NCBI GenBank assembly: GCA_003194525.1
Contig: NBIV01000157.1
Location: 1-64,000, forward strand
DNA from: Gracilariopsis chorda
Taxonomy: Eukaryota; Rhodophyta; Florideophyceae; Gracilariales; Gracilariaceae
Length of the DNA: 64,000 nt
Reading direction: 5' to 3'
Below are positions 10,480-47,000 of the stretch, piece by piece. The notes under the pieces are model-generated. The model searched no databases. It worked only from the letters and a program-made list of their open reading frames with translations, and was not told the DNA's origin. Positions within the stretch are counted from its first letter, which is position 1. Each line of letters begins with the position of its first letter. Position numbers and translations under genes: made by a program.

Positions 10480-11800
10480 CACACTGCCCCCATTTTCCTG
10501 CATCGATGATACATCGCCGCGGAGGTCGAGCAACCCTAAAACACCCCAAAGTCTCCGAGTTCGGTGTTCCCATAGCCACGCCACTATGTTTTAGACTTAC
10601 CACAGCACTATTACCTAATGCACACCGCCTACAGCGGTGCACAACAAAGCATTCCAATTAAAAACCCCTAACACAAAACGTGCTCTGCAAACCGCTGCAC
10701 ATTTCTGCAGCACAAAACGGCGACCCCCTAAAGTCTAAAAAACCCCTTCACAACAGCACATGATATGCAAGACAATTCTGTTTCTGTTAACATTCTGCAA
10801 CCTCTAAAACCCCTTAAAACACCAATAGAATAAAACCTAGGAATATAAGTGCAACCCACCAAAGTGTCTAGAAGTAAAACCCCTAATACCAATACACCCC
10901 CTAGAAAACGCCTAGAACCAATGCAAAAACGCCCCTAAAACAAAACCCCTAAATACAAAAATTGAGTAGAACTTGCATTTCTTAAGTGTACGGCCAATCA
11001 CAATTTTTTTAAAAACATTCACACTCCCCTCCACGTAAACACAAATCACCAAAACACACTAAAACGAAAAATAACGGTTACAAAAACCCTTAAGACGTTC
11101 TAATCACATATTTCTACGTCTAGAGAACTAGGCCATATACACGATTTTCTACATCTTGCAATTTTCATTATTCAAGTTCCAACCTTTAATACTCTGACAC
11201 ATCCATAATCATGAAAAGTGCAGCCTACCAGGACGGAAGCGGCCAAAACCTTGGCGAGCGAACAAATATACAACCCTCACACCCTGTAGCGCTAATCCTT
11301 TAAAACGACATCCCTGCTCCCTAAAACCCCTAATACGGAAAACATTCTTATCAGTTTTAAGCCCCCCACGGTACCTCCATACAAAAATTTTGTACCTCTC
11401 CTGTTTTTCTCCAACTGCACCTAAAACAACTAAAACCTCCTAACATTGACATATCAAGGGAATACAATAATAGATAACATTTCCTAATGCTAATGTATTC
11501 CCGTAAACACCCTTACATTTAAAAACCCTAAACTTTAATATGGAGGTTCTTACAATAACATAAAACCTTTCTTAATGCTAAGAACACCAAAGTATAAACC
11601 GCTAGATTTGAAACCCCTAATTTTTAATATCAAGGCTCTTCATTCTTTCTCGGAGGCTCCGTAATAAAAGCCTGCTTCGTGTCATTTGTTCCATGTGCGT
11701 GAACATGCCCGCAATGCTTCGTTTGGCCGAATATGACCAGTACTACAAACCCCTAAACATTTGTCAGACATTAAAAAAACGCATTCCTTGGTTTCCACAA
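10480..11800. other. Gene-free stretch with scattered CCCCTAAA telomere-like motifs
   Basis: No coding region seen. The + strand carries many isolated copies of AAACCCCTAA or CCCCTAAAA (near 10668, 10727, 10808, 10875, 10930, 10950, 11325, 11615 and 11745) in AT-rich DNA. They are not in tandem. They resemble the complement of the TTTTTAGGGG repeats at 14.62 kb. Confidence 0.55.
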
Positions 11801-11808
11801 TTCTCTTC

Positions 11809-12334
11809 AAAACCAAGCGCTTTCGCCCTTTTGCACAATATGCGTTAATATGCCTGCATTGCATGGTTTTAGCAAATGTTGCAAAAACCAAGCGCTTTTG
11901 CAGCCTTGTACAATGTGCAAAAAAATCCACGCTTTGCTCGGTCTCTCACCAAAACGGCCTAAAACCAAGCGCTTTCGCATATTTCTACAATGTGCAAAAA
12001 AAAAACCCGCATTGCTAGGCTGCGTGAATGTGCCCAAAACCAAGCGCTTTCGATCATTTGCACAATGTGCGTAAACATGCCCGAAATGTTTGCTTTGGGC
12101 AAATGTGTCCAAAACCAAGCGTTTTCGTACATTTGTACAATATGCAAAATATTCCCGTGTTGCTTGGTTTCTGCAAGGCAGTCCAAAACCAAGCGCTTTC
12201 CCACATTCTACAAATGAGCCAAAAAACATCCCACGCACTTGGTCTGCGAAAAGCTAGCTAAAACCAAGCGCATGGAGCATGCGACCAAACCTTGCCAAAC
12301 CAGCTCACAAACCATCCTTCCAAAGCCTCCGGCA
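11809..12334. repeat. 75-bp tandem satellite with a conserved 12-bp box
   Basis: AAAACCAAGCGC recurs at 11809, 11884, 11961, 12036, 12111, 12185 and 12260, a period of 74-77 bases. At 12111 the box reads AAGCGT. The 60-odd bases between boxes are much less conserved than the box, though most keep a TTTCG tail and an ACAATGTGC-like segment. Because 75 is a multiple of three, reading frames stay open for 75-145 codons on both strands with a 25-residue periodicity (minus strand 11807-12238, recurring KRLVL). Open frames on both strands mean these ORFs are a by-product and not a gene. Confidence 0.9.
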
Positions 12335-15094: not shown

Positions 15095-16970
15095 TCATGA
15101 TCGTTGAATCTGGGTGGCCCGTTTTTGATTTTTCCAAACATCGTGCAAATACGACGTGTATAATTGAATCTGACGGTTTTGGCGGGCTCGAGTGTTAGCC
15201 TTGTAGACGTTCCGCATTCCTGCCCGGCCATGCACACGCTGTTTGAAGTCTGCAGACTTTAAACATGGTACTGCTTTGATGACATGGCGACTGACGCTGT
15301 CGCCCTTCTTGAACAAGAGCGTACATGGCCACTTCTCTGGAATTCCATGACGTGGCAGCTGGCACTCAATCCAGGATTGGAACTGGCGCCAATAATTCTT
15401 CATCTTTGGATGGAATCTGCACTCCACGAGAGATCCTAGATCAGGAGGCTCCCGTTCAACGCGTTCGAGATACTTTGCCCTGTCACGGTAGCTTACATAG
15501 TTCAGCGCGGCGCGTAGGTACTTTCCAGTGTATCCTCGATGCGCCAACATTCTGAACAAATGCGCCACCTTGGCCTTCCACGTGCGTTCATCGATAGTGT
15601 TCCGTAAATAGCGAATCATTTCTCCCTTAACACTACACCGGTGAACGTGTGTGTGGGATGGATGGACTTACCATGGAGATACAGGAACTTAGAGATAGGC
15701 TTGGTGTACACCTTAACGTCCACGAGATTGTGGAAGAAGAATCTCCGTCCTTTGTATATCTCCAGGTCGAGATAGACTGCCTTCTTGTCACTAATATCCC
15801 ATGTCATGCGTAAGTTCGAACAGGTGTTCAGTCGTTGCATGAGCAGGTCGGCAGCCGCTCTGTTCAGCAGTATCACGAGACCATCATCAATGTAGCGACG
15901 GTTGATGATGACACTGCTGACAAAGTCCTTGAACATCCTTCGGAACTTATAGAACAGGTAAAGATTGGCAAGGGCAGGAGCTACAGCTGTTCCTGTGGCT
16001 GTGCCAACCAACTGTCTATGTACCCCATTTCCATCACTCACATAGTTGTTGTTCATGATGAACTGCAGTATTCGACACCAGAAGCCGTTGTTAACCATGA
16101 AGATATCAGGCAGTTCCCTGGTTAACACTCTTATGGCATCCTTGATGTCGATACTGAGGTAACACCTCTCCACATCATACGTTAGGAAGATGCAATCAGT
16201 TGGGAGGTGTATTTGTTCCAATTGCCGTACAGTCTGCCAGCTGTTCACAGAGATAGCCGGTAACTTGAGCACCACTTCGTTGAGGATGGTACTCAGCCTT
16301 CTAGAAAAGTCCGCAGTGATATAAGAGTGTGATACGGTAATAGGTCTAGATTTGACTGTAGGCTTGTGGATCTTCGGCAGTACATAGAGGGGTGCTGGGT
16401 CTTTGGCTCCTTGTGCATAGTGGAGGATCTCGTCATTGAACTTGCGTCCTTTTTGACATATTTCGAGAGTCACCACGAGATTACTGAGCAGGCTTCGAAG
16501 GGGGAAGGCACTGACCTCAGAGAATGCACCCTCGTGGATCTCCTTCTGCACAAGACCGTCGTAAAACTCTCGGCTCATAAGCATGAGACCAAGGTTCTTA
16601 TCGGCTTCTTTGATGTCCCAGTCCATCTTCTTAATGTACCGGATTCCTCGCATCAATGTGAGATGCAAAGGTGGATGCAAAGCTGGAGGTCGATCAATCT
16701 CCATACGAGTTATCTCTCTCTCAAGCTTTCCTTTCACTCGTATGTTCGTGGGGATGTCGACTCTCCCTCGTCCCGTTCCTAGTTCTTTGAACAGTTGATC
16801 CACTGTGTCCTGGAGACAGACCTTCAGTGGTGTCTGTAATATAAATCCACCACCAACTGAGAGTACTTTCTTGACTTCATATGGTATCTCAGCATCAGGG
16901 ATTCCAACTGGTGGGTTATACTTCAACTCGTTCGGTTTGAAGGAATGGGGCTTCCTAGGCCGAGAACGGT
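15095..16970 (-). CDS. Penelope-like reverse transcriptase
   Basis: Copies element RNA into DNA. Penelope hallmarks appear in order: LSVGGGF near the start; LYVLPKIHKP and SRPITVS (fingers); FLTYDVERCYLSID, which includes the first catalytic Asp; GTATGTAVAPALANLYL; the catalytic RRYIDDGL box; VYLDLEIYKGRRFFF; and YTKPISKFLYLHGKSIHP, the diagnostic Penelope thumb motif with KP...YLH...HP. The C-terminal 170 residues lie in an overlapping frame that begins where the first ends. There is no GIY-YIG domain downstream, which fits the Athena/Coprina-type group that uses chromosome ends. The reading frame continues upstream of the first possible start, out of phase with ORF1 and overlapping it. Confidence 0.8.
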
Positions 16971-25773: not shown

Positions 25774-28039
25774 CGACATACAATGGCCAGATGGTGCAAA
25801 TGTCTGAAAATCATCTTTGTCCAGACAGGTTGTGTGAGGCAATGCGGGGCACAGTTGGAGAGCACTGCAAACATGATGCCAAATACTTACAATACTATAA
25901 CTCTGTGGTTCGTATAAAAGGTTGGAAGCTCTTTACCGCCTCTCGCGACGGTCGTCGTACCGAAGCCTCTTGACCAAAGAAGCAAATATGCTGGACTGGT
26001 GGCGCAGCGACGGTTGGCAGATGCATTCTACGGTAAGCGAGCAGGTTTTCCTGCAAACATTTTCACACCCGGTGGCGCTTTTAGAAAGCGAGAAATGGAG
26101 ATATTAATGGACAGCTTTGCAACTACGCGAGCCACAATAATATGTACTGCCCGTGGAAGTACAGTATCATGCTTATAGTATGGATAGACGGGAGCTGACA
26201 ACGGCGTGAGAAGAGACATTGAAATTAGTGTCTTGGTTCTGGGTTCTGGAAAGTAAGGGACCTTCTGGGCGTCTCCTGAAAACACAAAAGCGCAAAACTG
26301 TTTCTTCATTTTCTCGCTTGCGAGATATTTTTTCCACGTTCTACTTAGCAGAAACAAAGCTCAGGGAAGAAGCATCAGAAGTTGTGGGCTTTCGTGAAAA
26401 TGCATCTAACCTCAAACTCATGTATGGTCTTTTAAATCTGTGTACATGCGGTTTCAGGAGGCCCACTTGTGCTACGCCATGTTTTAGGGCGGCTTTAACG
26501 CATATGCATAAATTCGCAAAAGCTTGAAGGGAAACCCGTGTGCCGTTTCGAAGCGGGGCACTCGAGCAGAGTTTGTGCCTCCGCTTCGAGTCTAGAGTGA
26601 ATACGTCTGTTTTTGCTCTGCAATGTCGCGTGATCAGTGATTGTTGGAAAGCTGTTGAAGACAGGTGCAATAGAGATGGGTGAAGCACGATTTATGAAAG
26701 AATGAGAACGAGAGCGGTCACAACACGTATCAGTTTGGTACCAAGCCAGTGAGAATAACTCAACAATTCATGGTTGTCAAGCGGGACCAAGCTTGATACC
26801 GGATATCAGGCCATCGGGGCGGACACCATACGAAGACACAAGCAGATTCCTTTTTATTCACAAGGTAGGTTGTAGTTGTTGCCTTTCACAACAACAAAGA
26901 CAGCGAAGACACTACCAGCTCCGCTCGCTTCTCCGGTCCTCAACTTCCTGGACCCCACAATCAATGTGCTGAGTTGTTGATTGTGTTTGAGAAGGCGAGT
27001 TATATGTAGTCGCTATTTTAGGGCCCGGTATCGATATCAGGCGTGTTGCGGTTGTGGTCGGTCCTTATCGACAAACATGTTATCATCCGCTGTCCTCGGT
27101 GCAATAATCGGGCCTCCGCTTCGCCTCGGCTCGACATTGTGATGTAAGAGAGATAGAGGTAACCACCCAATCAACACATTGCACCTCGGACCGATGGCTT
27201 GGAGCGTAGGCCGGTTGATAACTTATACGTATCTCACTCCATCGAGAATGACAACAGTATCCGTCTTTGGATTTGGATGTAGTTCTTTCTTGTTCATTTT
27301 TCAAGCATTTTCGACTTGCCGATAATTGGATACAGGTCTGGCAAAAGCGCCATAAGCACGGCACCCTCGAAGAGAAGTTGATGTCTCGGTTACAGTCCGC
27401 GATCAATTTTGCCCCCTGTCTTGATTCGTAACCCGCACTCGTCCGTTGACATAAGTCATATACACGCAATCAAAAGCTGTCCAGAATCCATTCGATACGC
27501 TGGTGATTGCTGTCAAATTTACCAAGGGAGTTTGGATCCAAGCGCACCCTCGCCATGGTGATACGTTGCGTCACATCATGCGCATACTTCGTTTTATAGG
27601 TTTCGTGCATAGTAGTTCTTAACTGCGTGACACCAGACGACTGAAGCGTGAGACTGCTCACCAGACATCTTGCTGACGGTAGCTAGCCCAATGCTCTTCG
27701 TATTGACAAAAAACAGATTTATATCATGACGCGCCTGAGATTTCATACAAACACAGATGCGAAACTCTCGCTGCACAGCTGTACCGCTTCTTAACATCAC
27801 GTGGCCATTCTCCTACATGCCACGTGCTTATTGCACTGTTCTTGAATACATCAGCAGCACCTGCCTCTCTATTGAGCATCGGTCAAGAAAGTTTTCTTAT
27901 TTAAACTCGCTGTGAGTCTTTTATTCCCATACTCCCTGTCTACCGTTGCAATATTTTGATCCGACTATCACTCTTCTTCGATCTTGCCATCCCATCTACA
28001 AATCTCGGTTTGAAACATTTCAGACTGCGCCAAAGCACA
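25774..28039. other. Intergenic stretch with a diverged local repeat
   Basis: No gene recognised. The part 27,240-27,470 resembles 37,770-38,040 (shared runs such as TTTTGCCCC and CGCACTCGT, the latter followed by a related CCGTTGACA/TCGTCGACT), indicating an old local duplication. A TATTTAAA at 27899-27906 may serve the gene starting at 28040. Confidence 0.4.
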
Positions 28040-28714
28040 ATGACTGGTTGCCGAAGCAACCTGTTATCTTACATTCTGCTTGTTCTGCTCACTGCACAAA
28101 CAGCAACTTGTTCTTGTCAACCCAAACTGCAAACCTGTGACATTCTGGAATATGCAGCAACGCCTAGAACCATTTTGAAGGATGAGACGGCTGCTTGGGA
28201 GGAAGTGCTTCTTTTCACTTGTTTCAACGTACAGCCTAACACATTAATCACGGTATACGAGGCGAAATCAAGCGAAGACAGAAACAAAATCCAATGTGGA
28301 GATAGATGGGCATTTCGTTACGAGAATGGCTTACATGTCAATATCTCTCTTAAGTGGAACCCTATAGAAAAGGAATGCAATGATAGTTTCTGTGTCGTTG
28401 TTTCGAGGAAAGGTACAAAGATGTACTTCACTGGACCACTTCAGATCTCATTCAATCAATCCAACCCTGACCAAGTTATTGGTCTTGAGACAGAGCTCCC
28501 GACAGATTCTGTTCTGCCTCTTTCGGACTACGCGAAAGCTCTACTCAAATTGTATGTATCTGGTATTTTAGATGAACTGGCCATCCGCCGTATACTTCTT
28601 CTGAAATTGACACAGAAACCATGTAAGATCGAAGATAAGGTGAACGTTAGGATTGCGCCACTTGGATCCTGCGCTACACTCAACATTGTGGTGAGCTCTT
28701 CGAATGTTCACTGA
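28040..28714 (+). CDS. Secreted glycoprotein A (paralogue of the 33.6-kb protein)
   Basis: 224 residues with the ATG at 28040. The signal peptide is MTGCRSNLLSYILLVLLTAQ. The ectodomain has spaced cysteines (LLFTCFNV, IQCGDRW, KECNDSFC, KPCK, GSCA) and sequons NIS and NDS. It aligns over most of its length with the minus-strand protein at 32518-33633: DSFCVVV/NGFCVFL, KMYFTGPL/KVFFSPPL, and KLYVSGILDELAIRR/LLYQKGILEEIQIRR. The frame ends at VVSSSNVH, coded over a GTGAGC that could be a 5' splice site. The paralogue continues into a membrane segment at this point, so the native protein may be spliced and membrane-anchored. Unknown family; extracellular or surface location is inferred. Confidence 0.65.
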   Translation: MTGCRSNLLSYILLVLLTAQTATCSCQPKLQTCDILEYAATPRTILKDETAAWEEVLLFTCFNVQPNTLITVYEAKSSEDRNKIQCGDRWAFRYENGLHVNISLKWNPIEKECNDSFCVVVSRKGTKMYFTGPLQISFNQSNPDQVIGLETELPTDSVLPLSDYAKALLKLYVSGILDELAIRRILLLKLTQKPCKIEDKVNVRIAPLGSCATLNIVVSSSNVH

Positions 28715-29544
28715 CCGTATCCGCTTCATACGGACTTGGATGAACTACAATCTGGCGTACACGTACGGAAGTCCTCTTTTTTCTGCCTGTCTTTTGTATG
28801 CAATTCAATCTTCAGCTCTCCCGATGCAAGGACAAATATCTCTGCAGATATTTGTTTCTGCTAAATATCAAGCCATGTTTGCTGGCATCTTACATTCATC
28901 TTCATAAAAAATCCTTGCAATCTTCTACATCCTCCGATAGTGCATCGGGATGTCAAGGATTTGTACACGGGTAAAAAGCAAAACTCTGCTGAGGCCCTTT
29001 CTACATATAGACATGGACTAAAATCTATCTTTTCCATTGTCTACAAGTTTGGGGCCGCTTTTGAGCGAAGTCATGGAAGAGACACTTCGTAATCGTTCTA
29101 TCAGTGTTGTTTTTAAATTTTCGTTTAGTTAACATGAATTATTTTTAATTCTTTTCCTGGTGCAGTGCCAAAAACGCATGTCCATGTTCATATGTAGAAA
29201 GGGCCTAACGCTTCGAAGTCCTTTTTGTTCATTACGTGTTACTTCCTTTATTGTAGGAGATGAGTCATCAAGGGGGGGAAGACATGGTAAGAATATCTGG
29301 TTGTCTGAACAATCGAACAGGAAGAAATTGGAACAATAGAACACATGATGAGAAGCCGAGATACCTGCCGATGATGCATTTTGTGTTGTGCGCTATATGG
29401 AGAAGAACATACTCAACAACGCAAAGGGGAAATGTGTATTTTAACGTTAAAAGGGTCGCATATATTGATGGAAGGTCTTCGAAAGAATCGTAAAATTCTT
29501 TCAAGGTGAAAATTGCAATGTGCGAGCTGTGGCACTAACAACGC
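28715..29544. other. Convergent intergenic stretch
   Basis: Lies between the 3' ends of glycoprotein A (+) and propeptide-like gene 1 (-). No domain recognised; the short frames at 29129-29504 show no family. Confidence 0.4.
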
Positions 29545-30180
29545 TTACTGAAGCTTAAAAGTCCGATCGTTTTCCACGTCAATTAACCTAATATTCAACT
29601 CTGCCAGAGCAGTGCGTATGGTATTTGCGATCACAGAAGGGCTGATCGGAACACCGGTCCGTGAAGAAGCCATGGAACATCTGATGAAACCCAAGTTCAC
29701 TCTTCCAATGTTGACAAAGCTTTTGTTAACTTTGCAATCCGCAGTGCCAGGATTTGATATAAGAGCAGACTGCACGTATGCACGACAGGTTGTAGCGCAG
29801 TCTGCACTAGTTCTGAATATAAAAGAGTTCCGAATAACTCCTCGAGGAACCGATACAGGGCGCGGAGTAGTTTTGAACGGTTGCGAGGCAGTTGGTTTGA
29901 GAACGCTTGGTTTCCGTCTCGGTGCATTCACACTGTTGTCCTGTGTGCTAAGTGCATTTGGAGGCGTGCGTGAGGGCATAAGAACAGCAAAACTGCCACT
30001 GGATGACGATTTGGGTGGCAGGATTACCGGATATGCAAGGTAATAAGCGCGGTTGGCCGGGTGAGAAGTTGCGCTTTTGTGGTGTGAATGGTTAATCAAA
30101 CCACCATCCGAGATGTTAGGAGTAAAGATGAGAAGCAAGGCGATGCACTGTGCAGTGAAGGAGAGGTTTTGAATGCTCAT
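29545..30180 (-). CDS. Stand-alone subtilase propeptide-like secreted protein 1 (I9-like)
   Basis: 211 residues with the ATG at 30180. The order is signal peptide (about residues 1-25), a Ser/Thr/Pro-rich linker to about residue 110, then a 100-residue domain from VPRGVIRNSFIFRTS to ENDRTFKLQ at the very C-terminus. That domain matches the propeptide of the subtilase at 38.4 kb in order: NSF-(I/L)-(F/V)-(R/Q)-TS, C-x3-CR-x3-Q, C-x-(V/I)...NIG-x-V, and a final (E/I)ENDR-x-F-x-LQ. In the enzyme this LQ is where propeptide should be cut from catalytic domain; here the protein stops there. Such free propeptide domains (family I9, for example Pleurotus and yeast inhibitors) act as inhibitors or chaperones of subtilases. 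Inhibition is inference. The leader before the ATG is shared with the 35.6-kb copy. Confidence 0.7.
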   Translation of the reverse strand: MSIQNLSFTAQCIALLLIFTPNISDGGLINHSHHKSATSHPANRAYYLAYPVILPPKSSSSGSFAVLMPSRTPPNALSTQDNSVNAPRRKPSVLKPTASQPFKTTPRPVSVPRGVIRNSFIFRTSADCATTCRAYVQSALISNPGTADCKVNKSFVNIGRVNLGFIRCSMASSRTGVPISPSVIANTIRTALAELNIRLIDVENDRTFKLQ

Positions 30181-32517
30181 GTTGGTTGGAGGGTGAGAGT
30201 GAGCACAAAGTTAAAGCAGGTGATATGGAAGTGCGCCTTGGAAAAGAACGAATAATATGCTCGGAGAGGGTTGGGGAGTGATTCAGGAAGAGAGAAATAT
30301 GGATCAACTTGCTGAGCAAAGACAGCCAGCTTCTTGCAATCACAGCTTAAATACGGCAAAATATGGCGCGATTAATGACGGTGCAAGCTTTGACGTGATC
30401 AACGGCTGCTGGGGGTGACGGACAGCAATGCACAGCACCCACAGTAAAGTTGTGGTGAGTGGTGAGGACGCAAGACAGCGTCATGGGTGTGAGCTATTTT
30501 TACTGGTTTTACGTTTGGTAACAGAGGCTTTCTTGCCTTGTTGGAACCAAAACGACGAGATGGAGCTTTTCCAAGGCGCCTCACTCCGCTGCACAGCACC
30601 AGTATCCATTTCTGGTGCCCAGAGCAAGCGATAGGCTGGCAGAGAGAGGGCTGAGAAAAACAGAAAAGGCAGGCGCCAGCGCTTTGCAGCGCAGTCAATT
30701 GGTTACGACGCGGGCGCCAGCGACGACAGAGCTGCGAAAGCGTGCGCTTAAGCCAGCCAACAAACTGTTTTCCGCGTTCTTTCAAATTCTGTCCTATGGA
30801 AGAGGAAAGTCGGACTGGGGGTTTTATGACTTTTGAATATATCTGTACTTGACGGCAGAGCTGCCGAAGGCTGTGGAGTGTCGCGCAGTTAAACAGCAAT
30901 TAATGTAATTCAGCCACGATTCATGTGCTTGCACGCCAAACGTGGAGCAGCTGCTCGTGCTCCATAGTCGATACAGTTATTACGCTCGTTTAACGGTTCC
31001 TGTTTTGCTAATGATGATAACGTACATCAGAGCAGCGTTCACGTGGCACGATTTATGGCCCGTAGACAAGCGCTGCGACGTGGAAGCATCAGCGCGAGCT
31101 GCTTTTACCGTCATGTACTGTAAATGCAGATTGGGCGATGCCATTTTGATTTAGGATGCACTGCCATGACGCGTCACCGACAGCTTAGGACATTGACTGA
31201 GCGCGTGCATCGCTGCACGCCGCCTTTGTCACACATGCGTTACAGTGCTGTAGATTTGTCACAATGTGCTACGTGTGCAACGTTGCGGCACTCTGCCATA
31301 CGTGGCACCTTTTGTTGAGCTGCCACCCACCCTGCTCACGCATGCATCGCCATCGGGCGCGCCATCTCCATGGCGCCGTCACCCAACCAGCGAATACCTC
31401 TGTCGCGGCCCCCATCCTCTGACGTCATTCATCATGTCGCTACAGGAACAGCAAAGGTCGCCATTAATGCTGCTGTCGCGTTTGCGACCGTCGCAACTGT
31501 CTCCCTCGCTGCCACTCCCTTTACCGCCGTCACGGATGCTGTTTTGAATACCATTATCACAGTGGTGATTGCTGCGGTCGTCGCCCTTTAGTTGGCATCC
31601 CTAGAAACCACCATCACCACAGTGCTTGCCAGTGCCATCGTAACTGTCGGCCGGTCTACATTCACCATTGCAGCCCTAGGATACAAGTCTTTTCTTGCTG
31701 CTGTCAACTTCGCCCTTACCCTTTTCACTGCTGTAGTTTCCACAGTTCAATCCCACAAAGTGCATGCTAATCAATCTAAACACGTTCTTGATTCACTTTC
31801 TATTTTAAAATCCATACCATTATGTTCTAGCTTCTAGCTTGTTTGCTGTCGGTTTGTGATACTAGTTGTTGCAGCCTGATCGCGCCATTTGTTACATTTT
31901 CTTTGGCGTGGAGACTCCAGAAGGCATTCATGGCGAGCAATTCGATACTAGCAGTTTACTTGATGAAGCCTACAACCAATATAGCGTACAGCCTGCCTAC
32001 TCAGCAAACAACCCTTCCGAGCGGTGGCAGCCACTAACGCACAATTACGGACCGTGTCCGCAGCGACAGCAAGCAAGTGGCGGCAAGAGCGGTGGCAGCA
32101 AACACTTCTACGACAAATTCGATGGCAGCGGCGGCAGAAGCGGTGAGACCGAGTGCCAAAATGACGGGAGCGGCATGCACATTGATTGCAACTTTGGTGG
32201 CGATAAAAGCGGTGATAAGAGCGCCATTGATCACAGCAGTGGTGTTACCGGCGATAACAACGTGGGCGACACTGGCAGTGGCGAGAACGCTGGGGACGGA
32301 AACGTCGGATGGGCTTCGAGCCGCGGATCAGGAACGGTGACCGGGTTCATCGGGGAACCTATGCATATCGTGCAGCACGCGTGCTGCAATTTATCACACG
32401 TGGTCAGCGAAACCGCTCTGGAGGTAGCGCTGCAAACTTATCACAAAGTAACGTCGAGAGGTCCAAGCGCCATCATCGTCCTATCAGGTTGGCAGTAACT
32501 TTAAGCAGCGCAAACAG
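30181..32517. other. Intergenic region with a GC-rich, triplet-like low-complexity segment
   Basis: 30,181-31,400 holds only short frames. From about 31,440 to 32,480 the DNA is built from GGC/GAC/GCG-like triplets. On the + strand 31,866-32,498 reads as a Gly/Ser/Asp-rich frame (ending IVLSGWQ), and 31,370-31,830 as an Ala/Val/Thr-rich hydrophobic frame. Several phases stay open on both strands, so coding is doubtful. Confidence 0.35.
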
Positions 32518-33633
32518 TCATGATGCAATGTCGCTTGCATCACTCGGCTCAGCGTGGTGATACTCACGGCAAAGGTACACTCGACGCACTCCGTCTACCA
32601 AGCAGCTTCGGAAATGTGTCACTTTGCCATCAACCCCTTCATTGAACGCCCAATACGTTCTCCTCGTCCAGTGCAGAGGATCAGAAATGTTGTAGAATAT
32701 ACCTGATTTGAGCACACGAGTCAACGCGAAAAGAATTGCTGAACAGAACCAACTTAAAGCGGTTATGGAAATAAGCCAATACGGGACAAGCGTATGCTCC
32801 TTTGACCCATTCGTCATTTCGCACTGTCCTCTTTCGGCGCTCATAAACAGCTTTCTTCGAATCTGTATCTCTTCCAAGATGCCTTTTTGGTAAAGGAGAA
32901 GAAGATAGGTGGCAGTTGAGTTAAGTGAGGGAACTGCGCCCGGTATGAACTCAGTCCAATATCCGGTATACTCGTTCGTATGGTTGAAACGAGCAGATGG
33001 CAATGGTGGAGAGAAGAAAACCTTACTCTCTTGAGAATAGAGGAACACACAAAAACCATTTCTGCAGTGCTGTTCTGCGTTTGGTTCTAGGATGCCCTTG
33101 CCTTTTGTATCCAGCTTGTATTTCATTAGCCAGTCAGCGCTGCAATCCACAAAAATCTTTTCACCGCTTCGGCTGTAGTTGCCCGGATATACTTCTATGT
33201 TGAAGTTTGCATCTTCTGCAGGGGTCATTTTGACACAATTCAACATCACAGCTTCTTCCTCCTTGTTCAGAGAGCTTTCTACTTCTAATGCTTCTGACGT
33301 TCTTAGATCCACTTGAACACACTTATGGCTGTTTTTCACATGATGTATGTGGGTTTTCGTATGAACTGAGACTAGAGTTTCCAGAGCAATGAACATGAGC
33401 ATGGCCACCACTGGAATTAGGCGCCAACGTAGTGAATGCGATTTGATACTCACCGGTCTTTCTGTTGATAGAGTGTGACATTCTTTCTTGGTAAGGATGA
33501 CTAGAACCGCTGAGATAAGACCGATCTCGCTGAGCGCTGAAACAATAGTGAACAAGAGCTGTGTCGTCAATGGTCGAAGCGGTATGATTAAGCCGTCCGG
33601 TCTCGGCTGCACATGGAATGAGAACGAACTCAT
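32518..33633 (-). CDS. Membrane glycoprotein A' (paralogue of the 28.0-kb protein)
   Basis: 371 residues from the ATG at 33633; a longer frame upstream lacks an ATG. Hydrophobic segments lie at about residues 20-48 (LLFTIVSALSEIGLISAVLV), 72-90 (LIPVVAMLMFIALETL) and 285-307 (YWLISITALSWFCSAILF). Between the second and third is an extracellular-like domain with conserved cysteines (NCV, VDCSADW, EQHCRNGFC, GQCEM) and sequons NYS, NHT, NST and NGS. A cytoplasmic-like tail follows, with SDPLHWTRR. The ectodomain aligns with the secreted protein at 28.0 kb and shares its LYQKGILEEIQIRR motif. Family unknown. The topology suggests a cell-surface receptor or ligand. Confidence 0.65.
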   Translation of the reverse strand: MSSFSFHVQPRPDGLIIPLRPLTTQLLFTIVSALSEIGLISAVLVILTKKECHTLSTERPVSIKSHSLRWRLIPVVAMLMFIALETLVSVHTKTHIHHVKNSHKCVQVDLRTSEALEVESSLNKEEEAVMLNCVKMTPAEDANFNIEVYPGNYSRSGEKIFVDCSADWLMKYKLDTKGKGILEPNAEQHCRNGFCVFLYSQESKVFFSPPLPSARFNHTNEYTGYWTEFIPGAVPSLNSTATYLLLLYQKGILEEIQIRRKLFMSAERGQCEMTNGSKEHTLVPYWLISITALSWFCSAILFALTRVLKSGIFYNISDPLHWTRRTYWAFNEGVDGKVTHFRSCLVDGVRRVYLCREYHHAEPSDASDIAS

Positions 33634-35619
33634 TCCTAGACACAAAGAAGTTGAGAATTAGAAAGCTACTCACAAGCAGTCGGTGCAAAGCTCTCTTTGG
33701 ATCCTGTCCCTAGCAGTCTCTATTGCGTAAACTGATAGCTCATGTTCTGGAAGCTTAATACTTTGCCAATTCTAGCGATCACCGTTGGCGTAGGATCTTC
33801 AGCAAACTCACGAGAGCGTAATGAACTTGTCCAGTTTCATCAGCGGTGGTACGTTTCTACACTTGGGTCGCGTGACGTGGCAACGCACCGGCACCCAGAC
33901 AAACCCCTGAATAATACAAACCTCAAGTGAGGACGAACCTTACCTTCGTGTAACTGCAAATCGTGTGGTGCAACTTATATATGTTGTAATGTGTGGCGTT
34001 CAAAAAAAGCTTCCAGCACTGACGCTACGCGATTGCAAGGCTCATCGTAGATATGCAGTGGCCTGCACCGCTCTGTTTCATACTTAGCGTAAGTTGGGGG
34101 TCGTTCACTATAAGGTTGAAGGAATCTCCTTCTTGCTCATAACAGACTCATTTGAGCGCTCAAGCAATTGCATTTATTTATACAAAGTTCTAAGTCGTCA
34201 CATTAGAAACAAAATGCTATTGCAGTGTCGGGCTAAGCTTCATAGAGGTTTGCAATTTTCCTGGATGTAGACAATTATCACAAATTTCTGACTGCAACCA
34301 GCTACGGTGTTCCTTACCTCAAGCCTTCACTGCGCGTCACTCTAAAACTCTTTCGAGTCTTGTCATGAGTCCTACAATGTGTCGATACTAGTCCATTTTC
34401 AGAACTTCGAGCGACCCTGCTGCCACCATAAAATGTTGTGTATCAAAGGCATCTAAAAGTGGTATCCGTCATTTCTACGTTGCCAACTGTGTGGCACTAT
34501 TTGTAATATAATTTTCTCACGTTACTTCCAACAAATCCAAGAAGAGCGTAACTTTCTGCTGGTCTTGAGTGTGAGTTTGTCTTATCTCTCAAACTGAAGT
34601 TAAGCACGCGTTACTGATGGTCAGACAATTCCAATTTGTTACTTGGCTATTGGAATTCAGTAGTAGGGCAATGTGGCAGAGAGGTATTAGGAGGAGTAAA
34701 TACATGCCTCAAGACTGGCAACCAAATCTTAGACTCATGACAACTGTTCGTGGCGGAAAACTATTCGGAAATCTCTAGCAAAGTGTATTATTTTGCTGAG
34801 TAAGGGAAAGCGTCGGGAGTCAACAATTTTGAGCCAATCGTGGATTTTGAAAACAAGGACGAGCTGCAATGGTACATTTACAAAGAGAAACGCAAGAGCT
34901 TTTTTTCACGTAACCAGTTTTGCTCTGTAAGGGTTACCGTTGTAAAACACAACTTGTCTCCGTGTTGCCTTTTTAAGCGTTTTGTAAAGAAATACCAGCG
35001 TTCTCATTTTACATCAAACCTAGCTTATACTCACAAGCTGCGTCCAGCGACTGACTGCATTCTTTTATTGTAGTAGTACAGTTACATTTATGCTCTGTTG
35101 AGTCAACACCGTGGTGATGCCCACTTTTGACTTCGAAGGAACCTCTCTCTCAAAGAATTTAAAAAATAAGCTGACAGTTTGAACAAATGGGCAGCTGTGT
35201 CTTCGTTGGGACCCCTGCTTGAGAGACCCAAAATGTTGGACAACAGAAAATTATAATGCCCTCAATTCCCTGCCGTAGAACGGGCGTAAGGAGCATTGTT
35301 GTGGAGCAACAGTGCAATGCGAGCCGGTCTTGAGCAAGCCCATAGGCTCAACAGTTAACGTCCAAGTTGCAGAATAGTGATTCTTTGTCAATATTTGCTG
35401 TGAAAGTGAGCCTACACTGTCAAATTGCGCCACTTTTGGTGCTACTTGTACTGCAACTGCAACGCGTTTGTGAGATCTGTTGAGCAAGCTGTTCCATATC
35501 ACGCCCCGCTTCAAACGCTTTGGACCCTGCTCAGATCAAGGCCTTTCCTTGTTTCTCAAGTTATATTTCCGTTTTACCTTTTCAGCCTCCCGGAAAAGAC
35601 CCACTCTCACCAAACCAAC
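33634..35619. other. Divergent intergenic region
   Basis: Lies between the divergently oriented A' gene and propeptide-like gene 2, and would hold both promoters. The last 20 bases before 35620 share CACTCTCACC...AACCAACATG with the leader of propeptide-like gene 1. Nothing else recognised. Confidence 0.4.
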
Positions 35620-36267
35620 ATGAGGGCTCAGTATCTCTTCTTCGCTGCATGGTGCATCGTCTTGCTTCATCTCAACTCTGCTGTCAACATCTCTGATGCT
35701 GCTGTGATTAATATCTCGATGCTAACAAGCTTGGGTGTTCACGCACCGAACCGCGGTTACTATCACGTGTACCCGGTGAAATGTCCATCCAAATCTTCAC
35801 CAACCAGCAGCTTTGCTATCCCCTTGCCGACGGAGACACCCTCAACAGTACCATATGACTTGCAAGATGAATTCGCTGTATCCACACCAGAGCCAGACGT
35901 TTCTAGGACACCCCCCTTGCAACAATTCACAACCGGTCCGCCCCTTGTATCGGTTCCTAGAGGAGTTGTTCGGAACTCTTTTATATTCAGGACCAGTGAA
36001 CACTGCGGTACAATCTGTCGCGCATACGTGCAATCCGCTCTTTTGTCAAACCCTGTCACTACGGATTGTAAAGTTAACAGCAGCTCTGTCAACATTGGAA
36101 GAGTGAACTTGGGATTTGTCAGATGCCCTGGAACATCGGGATATTCTACATTGACAGGTTTTACAATCAGCACTTTTGTAGTAGAGAAGACTATTCGCCC
36201 CACTCTGACAGACTTGAACATTACTTTGCTTGACGTGGAAAGCGATCGCAGTTTCAGGCTACAGTGA
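35620..36267 (+). CDS. Stand-alone subtilase propeptide-like secreted protein 2 (I9-like)
   Basis: 215 residues. The ATG at 35620 is chosen, although the frame opens at 35425, because it is followed by a signal peptide (MRAQYLFFAAWCIVLLHLNS) and aligns with the start of copy 1. The linker is Ser/Thr/Pro-rich. The terminal domain runs from VPRGVVRNSFIFRTS to ESDRSFRLQ and is about three quarters identical to copy 1 (SNIGRVNLGF-like core, same four cysteines). Like copy 1, it ends precisely at the LQ that precedes the predicted cleavage point in the subtilase 2.2 kb downstream on the same strand. Probable secreted regulator of that or a related subtilase (inference). The linkers differ far more than the domains, suggesting selection on the domain. 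Confidence 0.72.
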   Translation: MRAQYLFFAAWCIVLLHLNSAVNISDAAVINISMLTSLGVHAPNRGYYHVYPVKCPSKSSPTSSFAIPLPTETPSTVPYDLQDEFAVSTPEPDVSRTPPLQQFTTGPPLVSVPRGVVRNSFIFRTSEHCGTICRAYVQSALLSNPVTTDCKVNSSSVNIGRVNLGFVRCPGTSGYSTLTGFTISTFVVEKTIRPTLTDLNITLLDVESDRSFRLQ

Positions 36268-38422
36268 CATTTGTGTGGTTCCTGAAAACACATTTTGTGT
36301 TCGATAAAGAAGCGACTAGTTTGCACCGTTTTTGCTCCTGAAATCGTATGGCACACAATTTGCCCAATTGCAGATGGGTGCCTGTACCGGCGCAGTGTTA
36401 GGGCGTTCGATCGGAGACGATTACGTCAAGATCATCCTCTGAGCGGTAGACGTGTTGTTTAGTTGAATACGGTGGGTCTTTCCGCTGTAGTGCGGTGTGT
36501 CAATCAGCATTACAATTGTCAAAAGATACCTAGCGAGATCGACGACGATCACGAACGTAAAGCTCAGCCCGAGTCTTCCTCTCACATGGCGGTGTGGCGA
36601 AACCGAATGGAGATCTCTCCTAAAAAATTTGTCCCCCATACAGCTTTTGTACTGGCACGAGATAGAGGGGCCTCCAAAAACGCAAAAGGTGTACGCCCAT
36701 TTCATCATTTGAGTGGGCGCAAAATCATGAATTGTGCGTAAACAGTTTGTGATTTATGTTTCCAGGAACCACCCATTATTACATCACATTCGTGACACTT
36801 ACTTTGGACGATGATGTTCATAGAGGTACTTTGCGAAAATGACGATGCCTTGGCTGAGCGAGAACGTCTCCAGTGTGTAACCGACACACAATCTTGCTGT
36901 AGTAGCGGTAGTATACCTTTGCAAAAGGTTACGGGTGCTAGGCAGCACTATGCAAAGCAGTTCGGCAAATGCTTCCGGGGTACTGCCTTGAACTTTGCTC
37001 GTTCTTTGCATTCTTCTTTCTCAATAGAAAAACATATCCAATATGATGTAACATATGTAATGCGCAGGCATATATACAGGCCATATTTATCTCACCTCAG
37101 TAGGTTGTTACTAATCTCTGTATTAGATAATAAGTAATAAGTAATATATATACCGAGACATAGAAGAAAACAGAAACGTTTCAAGAAAACCTTGATTCTT
37201 GAAATTTTAGAACGAACGTTCGTGCTTGATTTGCTTAGCAGATAAAATGAAACAACAGCATGTGCTCTGTTACATCAATAGGCATAAAGCATTGATTTGA
37301 ATGAGTCTCAGAAGCCCTCAGCACTTCTTCGCGGAACATAGCAAGTAGATTTTCTGAACCAAATCACACATGCGCTGCGTATTCGAGAGACGTCAAGAAA
37401 CTGTTTGCTGTCCTGCACGACGGCTGAGCACACAAGACCTGCAGCTACCAAACGATTCCCCACCCGACACGTTCCTTTATGAGTTGTATGGAACAGCGAA
37501 ATCGTGCTTGTGGGGCCAGAGGAAACAGGAAATGTCTTTGAGTCTTCAACTCTGCACAAATCGTGGTAACGAGTGACAGGGGTGCCATACGACGGTGATT
37601 AATCAGGACCACAAGTAGTATGCCAACTGTGGGGGGTTTTCTCGGAAGTTTTTGGCAACGTTTTACACAGTGTCCCTCCTTCGCTGTCACATCGCGCTTC
37701 TGCAAAGTAGGATTTCCTGCAAGCATTGCATCGCGCGACATTAATTATTGCGCTAAAGCAGGGAAGGAAAGTGAACGGTCAATGGTCATCTCAGTCCATC
37801 GGTAATGATCACGAGATCGGTTCTTTGATTTCGATATCATTTGTTTTGTTCATCTCTCAAGCATTCCTTCGTTGACGATGATGGGCCACACGTTAGGGAA
37901 CAGTGCGGTAAACGTGTTATGTCGAAAACCTGGCGTAATTTCGGGTAAATTGAAGGGAACACTGGTACCTCACGTGCGGCCGGGACCTGTTTTGCCCCAT
38001 CTCGTGCCAGTAATCCGCACTCGTTCGTCGACTTACCTCGAGTTAGTAGAGAGTTGCTCTAGATATCGTCCATGCTTACAGCGATGATGAATACAGCAAT
38101 GTATGCGAAAGTTCGACCGATACCAAGCAAATTGACGACTTATCCAGCAATCGAAGTGGCGATCTCCGCGCACTGGCGGGATAGTAAGTGATGCTCAGAT
38201 AAACAATCTGAGTCGTAATTAAACGGTAAGCAGCTCACCCCAGAAAACGAGTTGACGACTTGATGCCTTTATCTTGACCCGTAACAGCACTGTTGCATTC
38301 AATATATAATCTCATCACCAACAACAGCCAAGAACAAGGCCTTCCTTATTCTCTCTTTCCCAACCATTACGTCCGCAGCGGAGCAAAAAGGACTGTCACA
38401 GTGAAGCTACTCACAAGTCTAA
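36268..38422. other. Intergenic stretch with diverged copies of a local repeat
   Basis: Segments at about 36,560-36,680 (inverted) and 37,770-38,040 share CCCC(TCT)ATCTCGTGCCAGT. The second also resembles 27,240-27,470. A TATATAAT at 38303-38310 lies 113 bases before the subtilase ATG. No gene recognised. Confidence 0.4.
38303..38310 (+). promoter_or_regulatory. TATA-like box of the subtilase gene
   Basis: TATATAAT, 113 bases upstream of the ATG at 38423. Confidence 0.4.
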
Positions 38423-39871
38423 ATGTTGGTGGTTTGCTTTCTATTTTCTGTTAGTGTGCTTTTCTATGTTATCTTATCTACATGTGGAGAGGTTGAGAAA
38501 TTTTTTGAACGGTATCAGCTGGAAGGTTTTGAGAAGTTTGTCATATTCAGACCTCCACCGCCCTATCGAATTGTTCCGAATAGTTTTTTGGTGCAAACCT
38601 CAGATATTTGTGATGACGCATGTCGGCAACAAGTACAACCCCTACTCTCCGCAAACTTTCGAACAAATGGATGCCAAATTCGAAATTCGGATATGAATAT
38701 TGGCTCAGTATACGTATTGCTTATCGCCTGTGATCGCAAAGACATGCAGAGGCCTTCGAGATCACGCATAGAATCCATGTCGAGAAGTGTAACTAAAACA
38801 GTCAGCGGAGGACTTACAGGGAACGGTTCAAAGATACTCATCATTGAAAACGACCGACGGTTTACATTGCAATCTCTTCCTCATCATGGGACACATTTTT
38901 CGAGAGGGTCATTTAGAACTAAGTTCTTCGGTGTAGACGAGACCGATGGAGGAATACCTCGAGACGGGCTACGTACATGTGCCTTTCAAAGTAATAACGG
39001 CAAAGGAACCGATGTTTGGATTTTGGATTCCGGATGTAACCCATCCTCTGGAGCACTTTGCAGGAGTACTGTAGCTTCTGAGACGAGAGAAACTTGTCTT
39101 GATACATATGGCCATGGAAACATAACGGGAAGGTTAGCAACGGATAGCATGATTGGGATAGCAACGGAGGCTACACGTCATTGCATCAAAGTTACGGATG
39201 GCGAACTTAGCGCCTGGGCGAATGTAATTATAGGGCTAGGAATCGTTTCACGTAACCTCAACAGGTCGAAGAAGGGCAACGTTGTGAACCTGGCTATTTC
39301 TGAAGAACTTGATACTCTTTTTGAAAATGATGAATTCAGACTATTGAATGTCATTTTAAAAGAGCTCTCCAGGCTGGGAGTTTATGTTGTGAGTGCAGCA
39401 GGAAACTTTGATAGAAGAAATGCATGTGACACTATTCCTGCGGCTATTAGAGCAGAAAAATTGTTCAGGGTACAGGCTCATGGTTTGGACGGAAATCCGT
39501 GGAGAGAAGGAATGGGTAGTGGAAATACTGTAGCAGTAAGTGGAAGAGACTGCATAGACCTTTCTGCTCCTGGGGTTGGTATCGAAGTCTCACCCGCAAT
39601 GAACATATCAGGAACGTCCCTTGCAACTGCATATGTCACAGGTGCAATCACAGTTCTGCTTTCTGATGACAGGCACGTCAAACTTCGAACTCTTACACAG
39701 AGAGGTAGAACTATCAATAATGGACGAGAGTTGGTATCAAAACGGTCGTTAGGGTTATCTTGCGGACAAGCGCTCAAGAGAAGCAGGAAATATCAGAAAA
39801 ATCGACTTCGTAGCTACGCAGTGGATCTTTTTTATTCTATTTTTCCTCGTGCTTCGCTACAGAAGAATTAA
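38423..39871 (+). CDS. Secreted subtilisin-like serine protease (family S8), complete
   Basis: 482 residues, intronless, ATG at 38423. Signal peptide MLVVCFLFSVSVLFYVIL. The propeptide (about residues 45-152) runs from VPNSFLVQTS to ENDRRFTLQ; cleavage is predicted after LQ, before SLPHHG. In the catalytic domain the Asp is in DVWILDSG (about residue 200), the His in TYGHGNITG (about 228), the oxyanion Asn in VVSAAGN (about 333), and the nucleophile Ser in NISGTSLATAYVTG (about 397). All four key residues are present, so it should be active. It is related to the proteinase K/S8A group. A basic 70-residue tail follows (LKRSRKYQKNRLRS). Secretory pathway or extracellular. Two neighbouring genes encode only the signal peptide, a linker and the propeptide-like domain of this protein, suggesting a protease with trans-acting propeptide partners. 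Its own substrate cannot be told. Confidence 0.88.
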   Translation: MLVVCFLFSVSVLFYVILSTCGEVEKFFERYQLEGFEKFVIFRPPPPYRIVPNSFLVQTSDICDDACRQQVQPLLSANFRTNGCQIRNSDMNIGSVYVLLIACDRKDMQRPSRSRIESMSRSVTKTVSGGLTGNGSKILIIENDRRFTLQSLPHHGTHFSRGSFRTKFFGVDETDGGIPRDGLRTCAFQSNNGKGTDVWILDSGCNPSSGALCRSTVASETRETCLDTYGHGNITGRLATDSMIGIATEATRHCIKVTDGELSAWANVIIGLGIVSRNLNRSKKGNVVNLAISEELDTLFENDEFRLLNVILKELSRLGVYVVSAAGNFDRRNACDTIPAAIRAEKLFRVQAHGLDGNPWREGMGSGNTVAVSGRDCIDLSAPGVGIEVSPAMNISGTSLATAYVTGAITVLLSDDRHVKLRTLTQRGRTINNGRELVSKRSLGLSCGQALKRSRKYQKNRLRSYAVDLFYSIFPRASLQKN

Positions 39872-44078: not shown

Positions 44079-47000
44079 GAAATTCTGATGCCAGAAAAAT
44101 GTCTTCGTTGCAGAGTGAAGATGTATGAAACATACTGGATGTAGTGGGTGTTAACTACCGTCTTCAGTAGACATACACAAATCTTGCCACCCACACAAGA
44201 GCCCTGGGTGGCACACCACATTAAGGAGCACATCCGCTTTAGATTGTTTCCCCATTGGGAACAGTTCCAGTGCTCTTAAGACACTGACCTCGGCTTCCTT
44301 AGTAAATAGGAGGCATCGAAGTCCACATTCTTTGCAAATCCCCTTGCGCTAGCAACCGGCAAGCACACAGTGATCACTGCCGATACCGACGGTTGTATCG
44401 CACCTTCGTTCGGTCAACAACATGGCGTCTGCGACGACTCCATCGAATCAGTCTGGAGACGTTGTACAGTACGCTCTCCAACAGTCGACCTCTGTCCCAT
44501 TTTCAATCAACCACCCGCGGCTTACCCACGCGAACCCGAAGTCAATTCGAATTTTTTTGAGTCAGTACGACCAATACATGAAGGAAGTAACATCTCGAGC
44601 CCTACAACTCGATGTTGTCGACTCTACCACTATGAAACCTGTCCGTTCTGTTAATCTCAGGTATTGCGTCCACTCTGAATGGCTGGAATCATGCATCGAA
44701 TTAGAGTATATAAGCGGAGTCAAAGAATCCAAAGACCTCACTGACGCAAAATTGCGCACCTACCTGGAATCTAAAGCTGAAGAAAAAAAAGGACACCACA
44801 AACGCAGAAATATTGATTCTATTATACGAAAGAAACTCGCCATGGACATTACAGACACTTCGTCAAGGTCCCGAATGAAAGCGCTTTTTACATCGTATGT
44901 ATCTGTTCTGCGTCGCAATGGTATTTGGTGGGTCATCAACGATCATCCAAAACTGGCCGTGAAGCATCTAGTATCTGACGTTTGGCCTAAAGCGTTACAG
45001 AAACGTCTCGAAACAAACTTGGAATTAGGTAATGCTTCTTTGAAGAAAGATTTCAAGGGTTTCATGAAATACGCCATGACAGTGGCAGAAGCCTTCCAGG
45101 TCATTGACAACGGTCCCCCCACTCGCACTCGAGGCTCTATGCCCGCAAAGAAAATTTAGGACACAACGACACAGGATTATGATCAAGTTCGTTGTCCTTC
45201 GCTGCTTCTGACATCAAAACCAACACCCGGAGAGGAAAGCTTCCTCCCCCATTCTGCCCTCATCCCCCCTGTAAACGGGAGGGCAAACGCCACTGGATTT
45301 GCAATTGCACTGAGACCACTGACACCGAAAAAGAAGCTCTCAAAGCCGAAATTGCTGAAATGAAAGCCGCAGGTTGTCCTTCAAGATCCACTAGATCACA
45401 GAAGGCAAGGAATAATGCTCAGAAAGCTACAACAGTCGATAGGCTAAAGCCACATCAAGTGAACAACTCACCGTCTTGCTCGATTAATGTATCAGATGGA
45501 ACGACCTCGATTGAATCAACAGCTCTTTGTGATGACGGTAGCGATGACAGCATCGTGTCGCCCAAACTTGCAGACCCAACAGCGCTAAAAAGAATCGGCA
45601 CGATAATTGCCATTCCAAAGGTAACACTTGCAGTTGCTCTGAATGAAAGCGACAGGAGCGCCCCAGAGCAATTCTCGTTCTCAAGGGCATGGACAGTACC
45701 GCGAACCATTCTACATTTGGCTTCAGGAAATCTTGCCCTCATGAACATCTCCTTTCTCGTCGCTGATGATGATCTCCCTTGCGGGAATCTATTGATCGGA
45801 ACATCTGTTCTGCAGCATCTTCGAGTAGACACACACACTCTGCTAGACAACAATCGCTTTGCTTCGAATGGATCTGACTGTTCTGGAGTCGGGAATCCTA
45901 CGTCGGTTACCACTACCGGTTTTGTCAGTCGCTTGATGATTGCCAGGCTTAATGAAACCGGGACACTGGCAAGAGAAAGCCCGCCACCACTTGAGCGCTC
46001 TCGTGTAATCTATGACACCATCCGCCGTAGCGAAGATCCGTTCCCAGACCCTGCGGTGCTAGATCCAGTCGACTCCAACCAACATGAAACCATCTTAAAA
46101 GCCGTGAGCAACATGGTACAAGCCGCCATCGCAAATTGCATGGCCGGGAAAGAATCAAACGAGCTGAAAAAGTTGGTTGAGGATCACATCGACATATTTC
46201 GCACGTCTCTCTCATCAGGCCCTCCAGTTGAAGTACTGCCACTAAAGATCGCCCTGACGCCCGATGCTCATCCCATCAAAGTCCGCTTGCGAAATTACTC
46301 ACAAGACCAACGGGAATTCTTGGACAAGTTCGTCTCGGAACTGGTACGAGCTGGTATGGCCTACCCAAACTCTTCTTCTGCTTGGACATTTGCGCCGCTT
46401 ATTTTCCCCAAGCCAGGGATAGTACGGTTTCGTTTCACATTGGACCTGCGCCCAATTAATAAGTTTACAGTCAAACATCAAGATCCAATGCCAAACGTAG
46501 AACAGGAACTTCTCAAGCTTGCGAACTCTCGTTTCTTTGCGTCTTTCGATCTCTCACATGGTTACTGGCAGTTGCCACTGGACTCGGAATCTCAGGAGCT
46601 ACAATCGTTCATCACACCTGACGGCGTCTTCTCTCGCACCAGAGTATTGCATGCTACCAACGCTACAACATACCTTCAATCTGTACTGGCACAAGTGTTT
46701 CCCGAAGAAGCTTCGAGGTCATTTATTACACTGGGTAGATGACATTCTTTTACACCACCCCACTACTGAAGACCTATTGGACGGAATCCATCTGCTGTTC
46801 CGCACTTGCGCCAAGTTCTCTATCCGACTGCACCCCAAAAAGTGCATTTTCTTTGCGCAGTCCATCCGTTGGTGTGGCAAAATCGTTTCTGCAAAATGCG
46901 ATCGACACGATCCCCGAAATCTTGACGGTCTTATTAAGATGGAACCACCGACAACTGGCGCACACCTTCAGCAATTTAGGTGTGCAATCCAGTGGGTCAA

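Follow-up and report, generated by a model that had tools for sequence, protein, structure and literature searches.

Stand-alone inhibitors resembling the propeptides of subtilisin-like proteases (subtilases) are known from fungi, plants, and apicomplexans, in one case encoded beside the protease genes (PMC6993865, PMC10936178). Plasmodium SUB1-ProM (PF3D7_0507400), a propeptide mimic that bears a signal peptide and is encoded in one exon beside SUB1, acts as a potent and selective inhibitor; BLAST finds nothing significantly similar to it except its orthologues, its tail lacks one residue, and its C-terminus has been modeled into the active site (PMC6993865). The yeast peptidase B inhibitor (PBI2), Pleurotus POIA1, and Arabidopsis SPI-1, all of MEROPS family I9, are small proteins that act like propeptides in trans, and Toxoplasma TgMIC5, to which the present proteins are likened by description only, is a stand-alone propeptide mimic regulating a subtilase (PMC6993865). 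For the classical inhibitors, divergence is so great that convergence has been proposed (PMC6993865). Here a locus is described from positions 1 to 64,000 of contig NBIV01000157.1 of Gracilariopsis chorda (a stretch of 64,000 nucleotides, hereafter the window), in which two small genes, Y1 and Y2, and the gene of a divergent subtilase, S, all fall within 10.3 kb, and in which Y1 and Y2 probably encode trans-acting propeptide-mimic inhibitors of S and/or its close paralogues.

Like SUB1-ProM, Y1 and Y2 are stand-alone, have what looks like a signal peptide, lie beside a subtilase gene, and carry a Glu-x-Asp/Asn pair and a hydrophobic P4 residue (PMC6993865). They differ from it in their clear homology to the pro-region of the neighboring enzyme, in ending exactly at the putative P1 residue, in the four cysteines shared with the pro-region of S, in being present as two copies, and in having a long N-terminal region; docking of their C-termini into an active site, as modeled for SUB1-ProM, is a proposal. 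From inhibitors of the PBI2, POIA1, and SPI-1 type they are set apart by being matched by no I9 model tried and by being plainly homologous to the pro-region of the neighboring enzyme; the yeast and Pleurotus stand-alone inhibitors are also not known to have a signal peptide. A further comparison is offered by PCSK9, which cleaves itself after a Gln followed by a Ser and whose prodomain stays bound as an inhibitor, since S has FTLQ/SLP at the corresponding spot. In PCSK9, however, pro-region and catalytic domain form one polypeptide, and the search of the PDB with S matched no pro-region.

In the open-access literature, neither algal genes of this kind nor a pair clearly homologous to the pro-region of an adjacent enzyme appeared in the titles and abstract beginnings of the matches listed. 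Such inhibitors are known elsewhere, but rarely with a kinship to the neighboring enzyme so plain, and the value of the present case lies in this kinship being still visible. Because Y1, Y2, and S lie so close together, at about 32% identity and with the same tail, both the descent of the inhibitors from a pro-region and the matching of inhibitor to enzyme are directly testable. In viral_contigs, three scans (S, A1, and A2 as queries) gave 8, 12, and 39 pattern matches, none of which was confirmed, and a plasmid tblastn search with S from residue 40 onward as the query returned 26 records, all aligned from S residue 163 or later and none with the pro-region.

Homology of Y1 and Y2 to the Pro-Region of S

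Y1 (211 residues; 29545..30180, complement strand) and Y2 (215 residues; 35620..36267, forward strand), as read from the list of open reading frames, the DNA, and the alignment, stand in inverted orientation to each other; the listed frame of Y2 opens earlier, at a TTG at 35425, with 35620 as its signal-peptide-like ATG. The first-pass annotation of the window had reported three open reading frames at these coordinates and those of S, with a C-terminal domain of some 100 residues in each small protein that matches the S pro-region, and this is borne out: the domains of Y1 (residues 112–211; 29548..29847, complement) and Y2 (residues 113–215; 35956..36264, forward) align to residues 47–150 of S with about 32% identity, at 55.5 and 54.7 bits, and the raw Smith-Waterman scores of 133 and 132 lie far above the maxima of 68 and 58 reached in 1000 shuffles each. 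A profile of the three domains, searched against all six frames of the window (2020 stretches of at least 20 residues), found above the inclusion threshold only those three, the next best having an E-value of 0.39. Four cysteines and the motifs NSF..TS, NIG-x-V, and E-[NS]-D-R-x-F-x-LQ are common to all three; the ENDR previously listed among the shared motifs is not universal, as Y2 reads ESDRSFRLQ.

Over their full length, Y1 and Y2 are 53% identical (197 bits). Their N-terminal region of about 110 residues, to which S shows no match in pairwise alignment, consists of a conserved NRxYYxxYPV stretch followed by a Ser/Thr/Pro-rich linker. The earlier claim that the linkers diverge while the domain is kept agrees with residue identity, which is 41/108 N-terminal to the domain and 72/103 within it, but purifying selection acts on the linker as well: the ratio of nonsynonymous to synonymous substitution rates (dN/dS) is 0.35 in the domain (bootstrap 95% interval 0.20–0.62) and 0.37 in the linker (0.18–0.73; 890 of 1000 bootstraps usable), and 0.91 over the first 40 columns (0.34–2.46; 999 bootstraps usable). 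The first 60 codons of the domain show high identity, but gene conversion as its cause was unsupported: among codons for identical residues, 11 of 49 differ synonymously in this part and 24 of 63 outside it (Fisher p 0.10). Both proteins are presumably secreted, as the first-pass annotation had proposed; the basis for this is their hydrophobic, signal-peptide-like N-termini.

S itself (482 residues; 38423..39871, forward strand) matches PF00082 at 26.1 bits (cutoff 21.8) and a profile of 49 bacterial S8 domains at 55.3 bits. The triad residues D202, H231, and S399 together with the oxyanion residue N328 align in order with the D, H, N, and S of the profile, as is characteristic of Peptidase S8A, while HGN stands in place of the usual HGT. 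In NCBIfam the mycosin model TIGR03921 scores best (E 1.2e-11), though its 44.3 bits fall far short of the cutoff of 278.75, and among PDB sequences PCSK9 comes closest (E 3e-7, over residues 304–427). S is thus a divergent subtilase whose proteolytic activity is plausible because the triad is complete. The report of proteinase K homologues in red algae (PMC6713707) fits an enzyme of this type, if the host is indeed a red alga. No other subtilase-like frame was found by the six-frame profile search of the window, the next best match having an E-value of 1.9. The pro-region of S, recognized by its homology to the Y1 and Y2 domains, covers residues 47–150 (38561..38872, forward) and ends in FTLQ just before the putative cleavage site.

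The Shared C-Terminal Tail

The resemblance is closest at the C-terminal end, where Y1 reads VENDRTFKLQ, Y2 VESDRSFRLQ, and the pro-region of S IENDRRFTLQ, followed in the enzyme by SLPHHG. Counted from Q as the putative P1, all three (3/3) have E at −8, D at −6, the P4 residue F at −3, and Q at 0; none of the three departs from E, D, R, F, L, and Q, which include P4, P2 (L), and P1, whereas P3, a position that in a subtilase substrate points to solvent, varies (K in Y1, R in Y2, T in S). The protein alignments of Y1 and Y2 reach the LQ before residue 151 of S, and both reading frames stop there, in register with S 150 and with different stop codons (TAA and TGA), exactly as had been claimed. 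This LQ is the likely propeptide cleavage site of S.

In the PfSUB1 propeptide (Prodp9) the corresponding residues are Glu209, Asp211, Val214, and the C-terminal Asp217, the Glu/Asp pair serving as helix caps and Val214 as the P4 residue in the S4 pocket, and the capping pair of subtilisin BPN′ is Glu69/Asp71 (PMC6993865). The spacing of E(−8), D(−6), and P4(−3) in Y1, Y2, and S equals that given for PfSUB1 in the same source, so that a Glu-x-Asp/Asn capping pair and a hydrophobic P4 at fixed distance from a C-terminal P1 are present in each of the three domains. When the domains were shuffled 200000 times each, an exact C-terminal match to [ILV]E.[DN]..[VILMFY]..., a pattern devised after the tails had been seen, arose 46 times for Y1, 69 for Y2, and 34 for S. 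Among bacterial S8 proteins, an [IVL][EQY]x[DN] block precedes the mature domain in 46 of 48 pro-regions, with E first in 42 of the 46 and V, I, M, or F at E+5 in 41 of the 46; this set is biased, being drawn from 85 loci of which the 48 with one frame bearing WGLDR-like and GTSMAxPHVAG-like motifs were kept and 37 dropped, and the block, absent as counted from 2 of the 48 proteins, was likewise chosen after the tails had been viewed.

Proposed Mode of Action

Propeptide mimicry by Y1 and Y2 is well supported at the level of sequence because homology to the adjacent pro-region, the E-x-D pair at −8/−6, the hydrophobic P4, the identity of P4, P2, and P1, and purifying selection all coincide. 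In the model proposed here, Y1 and Y2 would be secreted, probably disulfide-stabilized copies of a subtilase pro-region that exert a tight, enzyme-matched inhibition in trans. S would cleave itself after ...FTLQ, with its own propeptide remaining bound for a time, and Y1 or Y2 could then dock on mature S as the enzyme's own propeptide does. The E-x-D of the inhibitor would cap two helices of the catalytic domain, its P4 Phe would fill S4, and its free C-terminal Gln would occupy the active site as P1 with nothing beyond it to cut, amounting to product-like docking. The N-terminal region of about 110 residues may hold the inhibitor in, or target it to, the secretory pathway or the extracellular matrix. 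A more far-reaching and tentative suggestion is that copies of the pro-region of a subtilase gene became a small family of secreted inhibitors, each with two disulfide bonds, which stayed beside the enzyme and kept the exact P4-P2-P1 tail, a case of descent rather than convergence, and which may form a larger secreted module together with the X1 and X2 proteins described below.

Relation to the I9 Family and Alternative Explanations

Two sets of observations count against the reading of Y1 and Y2 as propeptide-mimic inhibitors: the outcome of the family and structure searches, and the sequence and alignment at their stop codons. As to the former, the domains of Y1, Y2, and S gave no match to I9 in Pfam, even at an E-value of 10, or in NCBIfam, and none by sequence in the PDB, where the one match of a profile search was to a designed repeat protein and contained no stretch that was significant by itself. 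Local alignment with hhalign to 46 bacterial I9-type pro-regions yielded a probability of 0.95% and a score of 14.1 over 9 columns, with 5 of 200 column-shuffled controls scoring higher; the global score of 1.9 lay below each of the 8 highest among 150 shuffles. An I9-type profile built from bacterial S8 proteases did not find the three domains by hmmsearch in the six frames of the window at an E-value of 5. Membership of I9 by sequence is unsupported on these results, and the I9 label given in the first-pass annotation is not upheld by any sequence search. The domains are taken to work like subtilase propeptides, given that the one in S is itself such a pro-region, and are not filed as members of I9.

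AlphaFold models, both predicted from three-row alignments, are weak. The Y2 domain is modeled as strand-helix-strand-strand-helix with a mean predicted local distance difference test score (pLDDT) of 52.8, and residues 54–141 of S as strand-helix-strand-strand-helix-strand, the last strand being listed in the S model only. In S, 10-residue block means of 53–84 over residues 51–140 are followed by an average of 34 in the tail (141–150), and with pLDDT below 50 from residue 140 onward the catalytic part is unfolded in the model, which scores 40.8 as a whole. Foldseek returned nothing at E ≤0.001 for either model and no subtilisin propeptide among the best 50 of 441 matches (Y2) or the best 50 of 929 (S), the latter including designed ferredoxin folds. 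The order of elements is nevertheless that described for subtilase propeptides (PMC6993865), and as regards the structural comparison with I9 that had been put forward as a check, the models are at most consistent with a subtilase-propeptide fold.

As to the stop codons, the sequences there, CAGTAAGC (Y1, CA/GTAAGC) and CAGTGACA (Y2, CA/GTGACA), could in principle act as splice donors, so an intron might begin at the apparent stop and the mature protein be longer, perhaps with a catalytic domain. A donor at these points is conceivable because it is the stop codons themselves that create the two sequences: CAG followed by TAA or TGA always yields GTRA. Both sites score 5 of 9 positions of a generic donor consensus, which is the commonest score among the CAGTRA sites on both strands of the window (36 of 74, the Y1 and Y2 sites included). 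Y2 and S share a strand, with S 2.2 kb farther downstream, and in tblastn the alignment of S to Y1 continued past the Y1 stop for 11 S residues, gaining 0.7 bits (56.2 against 55.5), an overrun that is most likely due to chance. Apart from S beyond Y2, tblastn and the six-frame profile search found no catalytic domain downstream of Y1 or Y2 in the window; in S the frame stays open through the corresponding point, and Y1 and Y2 end at one and the same residue. Judged from the open frames, Y1 and Y2 are genes of their own without a catalytic domain, as stand-alone propeptide mimics are. Splicing into a downstream exon, which would make the two frames incomplete, is unlikely.

Other explanations accept the two proteins as they stand. 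Subtilase pro-regions commonly aid the folding of the catalytic domain (PMC10580911, PMC6993865), and the homology of Y1 and Y2 is to a true pro-region, so that they might be mainly chaperones acting in trans on S or on propeptide-less relatives, or chaperone and inhibitor at once; as S has its own pro-region, no second subtilase frame occurs in the window, and the exact stop at P1 suits product-like inhibition, this seems quite improbable. The domain could also have been copied from a pro-region and since acquired another function, as in the plant DAL (DAG-like) proteins, whose stand-alone domain is thought to descend from an I9 pro-region and which serve organelle RNA editing and not the control of secreted proteases (PMC5515838). 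The further conserved N-terminal region without match in S would suit such a change, but the presumed enzyme-contacting tail is strongly kept and the N-termini are signal-peptide-like, unlike what a role in organelle RNA editing would suggest, and a small though appreciable chance is left to this possibility. Very improbable, finally, is that Y1 and Y2 are functionless fragments of a partially duplicated subtilase gene: transposable-element genes flank the locus on both sides and the copies are inverted, but neither frame is interrupted anywhere along its length, and the domain has the low dN/dS given above. Their shared N-terminal half, having no match in S, also indicates that they constitute a separate gene family and are not truncations of S made independently of each other.

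Surroundings of the Locus

The window looks eukaryotic and intron-poor, with many transposon genes, and its GC content varies between 0.38 and 0.55 in 4-kb steps. Pfam, queried with 20 frames of the window, returned a DDE_1 transposase, an RNase H-like domain, and a DDE_Tnp_4 transposase, as well as a reverse transcriptase above its cutoff at 15619–16926 and a second just below it at 45192–46739. Within the window ARAGORN found no tRNA and Rfam gave 0 matches at gathering thresholds, and a promoter and terminator scan stayed at chance levels, which means little for a eukaryote as the model is bacterial.

A second paralogous pair lies among the genes discussed above, X1 (28040–28714, forward) adjoining Y1 and X2 (about 32518–33402, complement) standing between Y1 and Y2, so that the locus comprises two paired families. 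The two are 31% identical over 151 residues (62 bits), belong to no family in Pfam or NCBIfam, and have hydrophobic stretches at their N-termini, X2 also having, as seen by eye, a transmembrane-like stretch near its C-terminus. Between X1 and Y1, at 28992–29206, is an element resembling a miniature inverted-repeat transposable element, with 27-nucleotide inverted arms that are 93% complementary and lie 161 nucleotides apart, AGGCCCTTTCTACATAT... A direct repeat (27231–27350 and 37788–37906; 86 of 122 columns identical), situated some 0.5–0.7 kb upstream of X1 and of S, is possibly a transposon remnant or a shared upstream element. Farther away, at positions 3010–6599, OrsD is matched weakly (19.2 bits against a cutoff of 26.6) and overlapping frames follow, among them one encoding a DEAD helicase domain; together they perhaps represent a mobile element, now decayed, that carried a helicase. 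An N6/N4 DNA methylase domain is found near them at 623–1591. A degenerate array with units of about 75 nucleotides, containing CCAAAACCAAGCGCTTTC, occupies 11701–12207.

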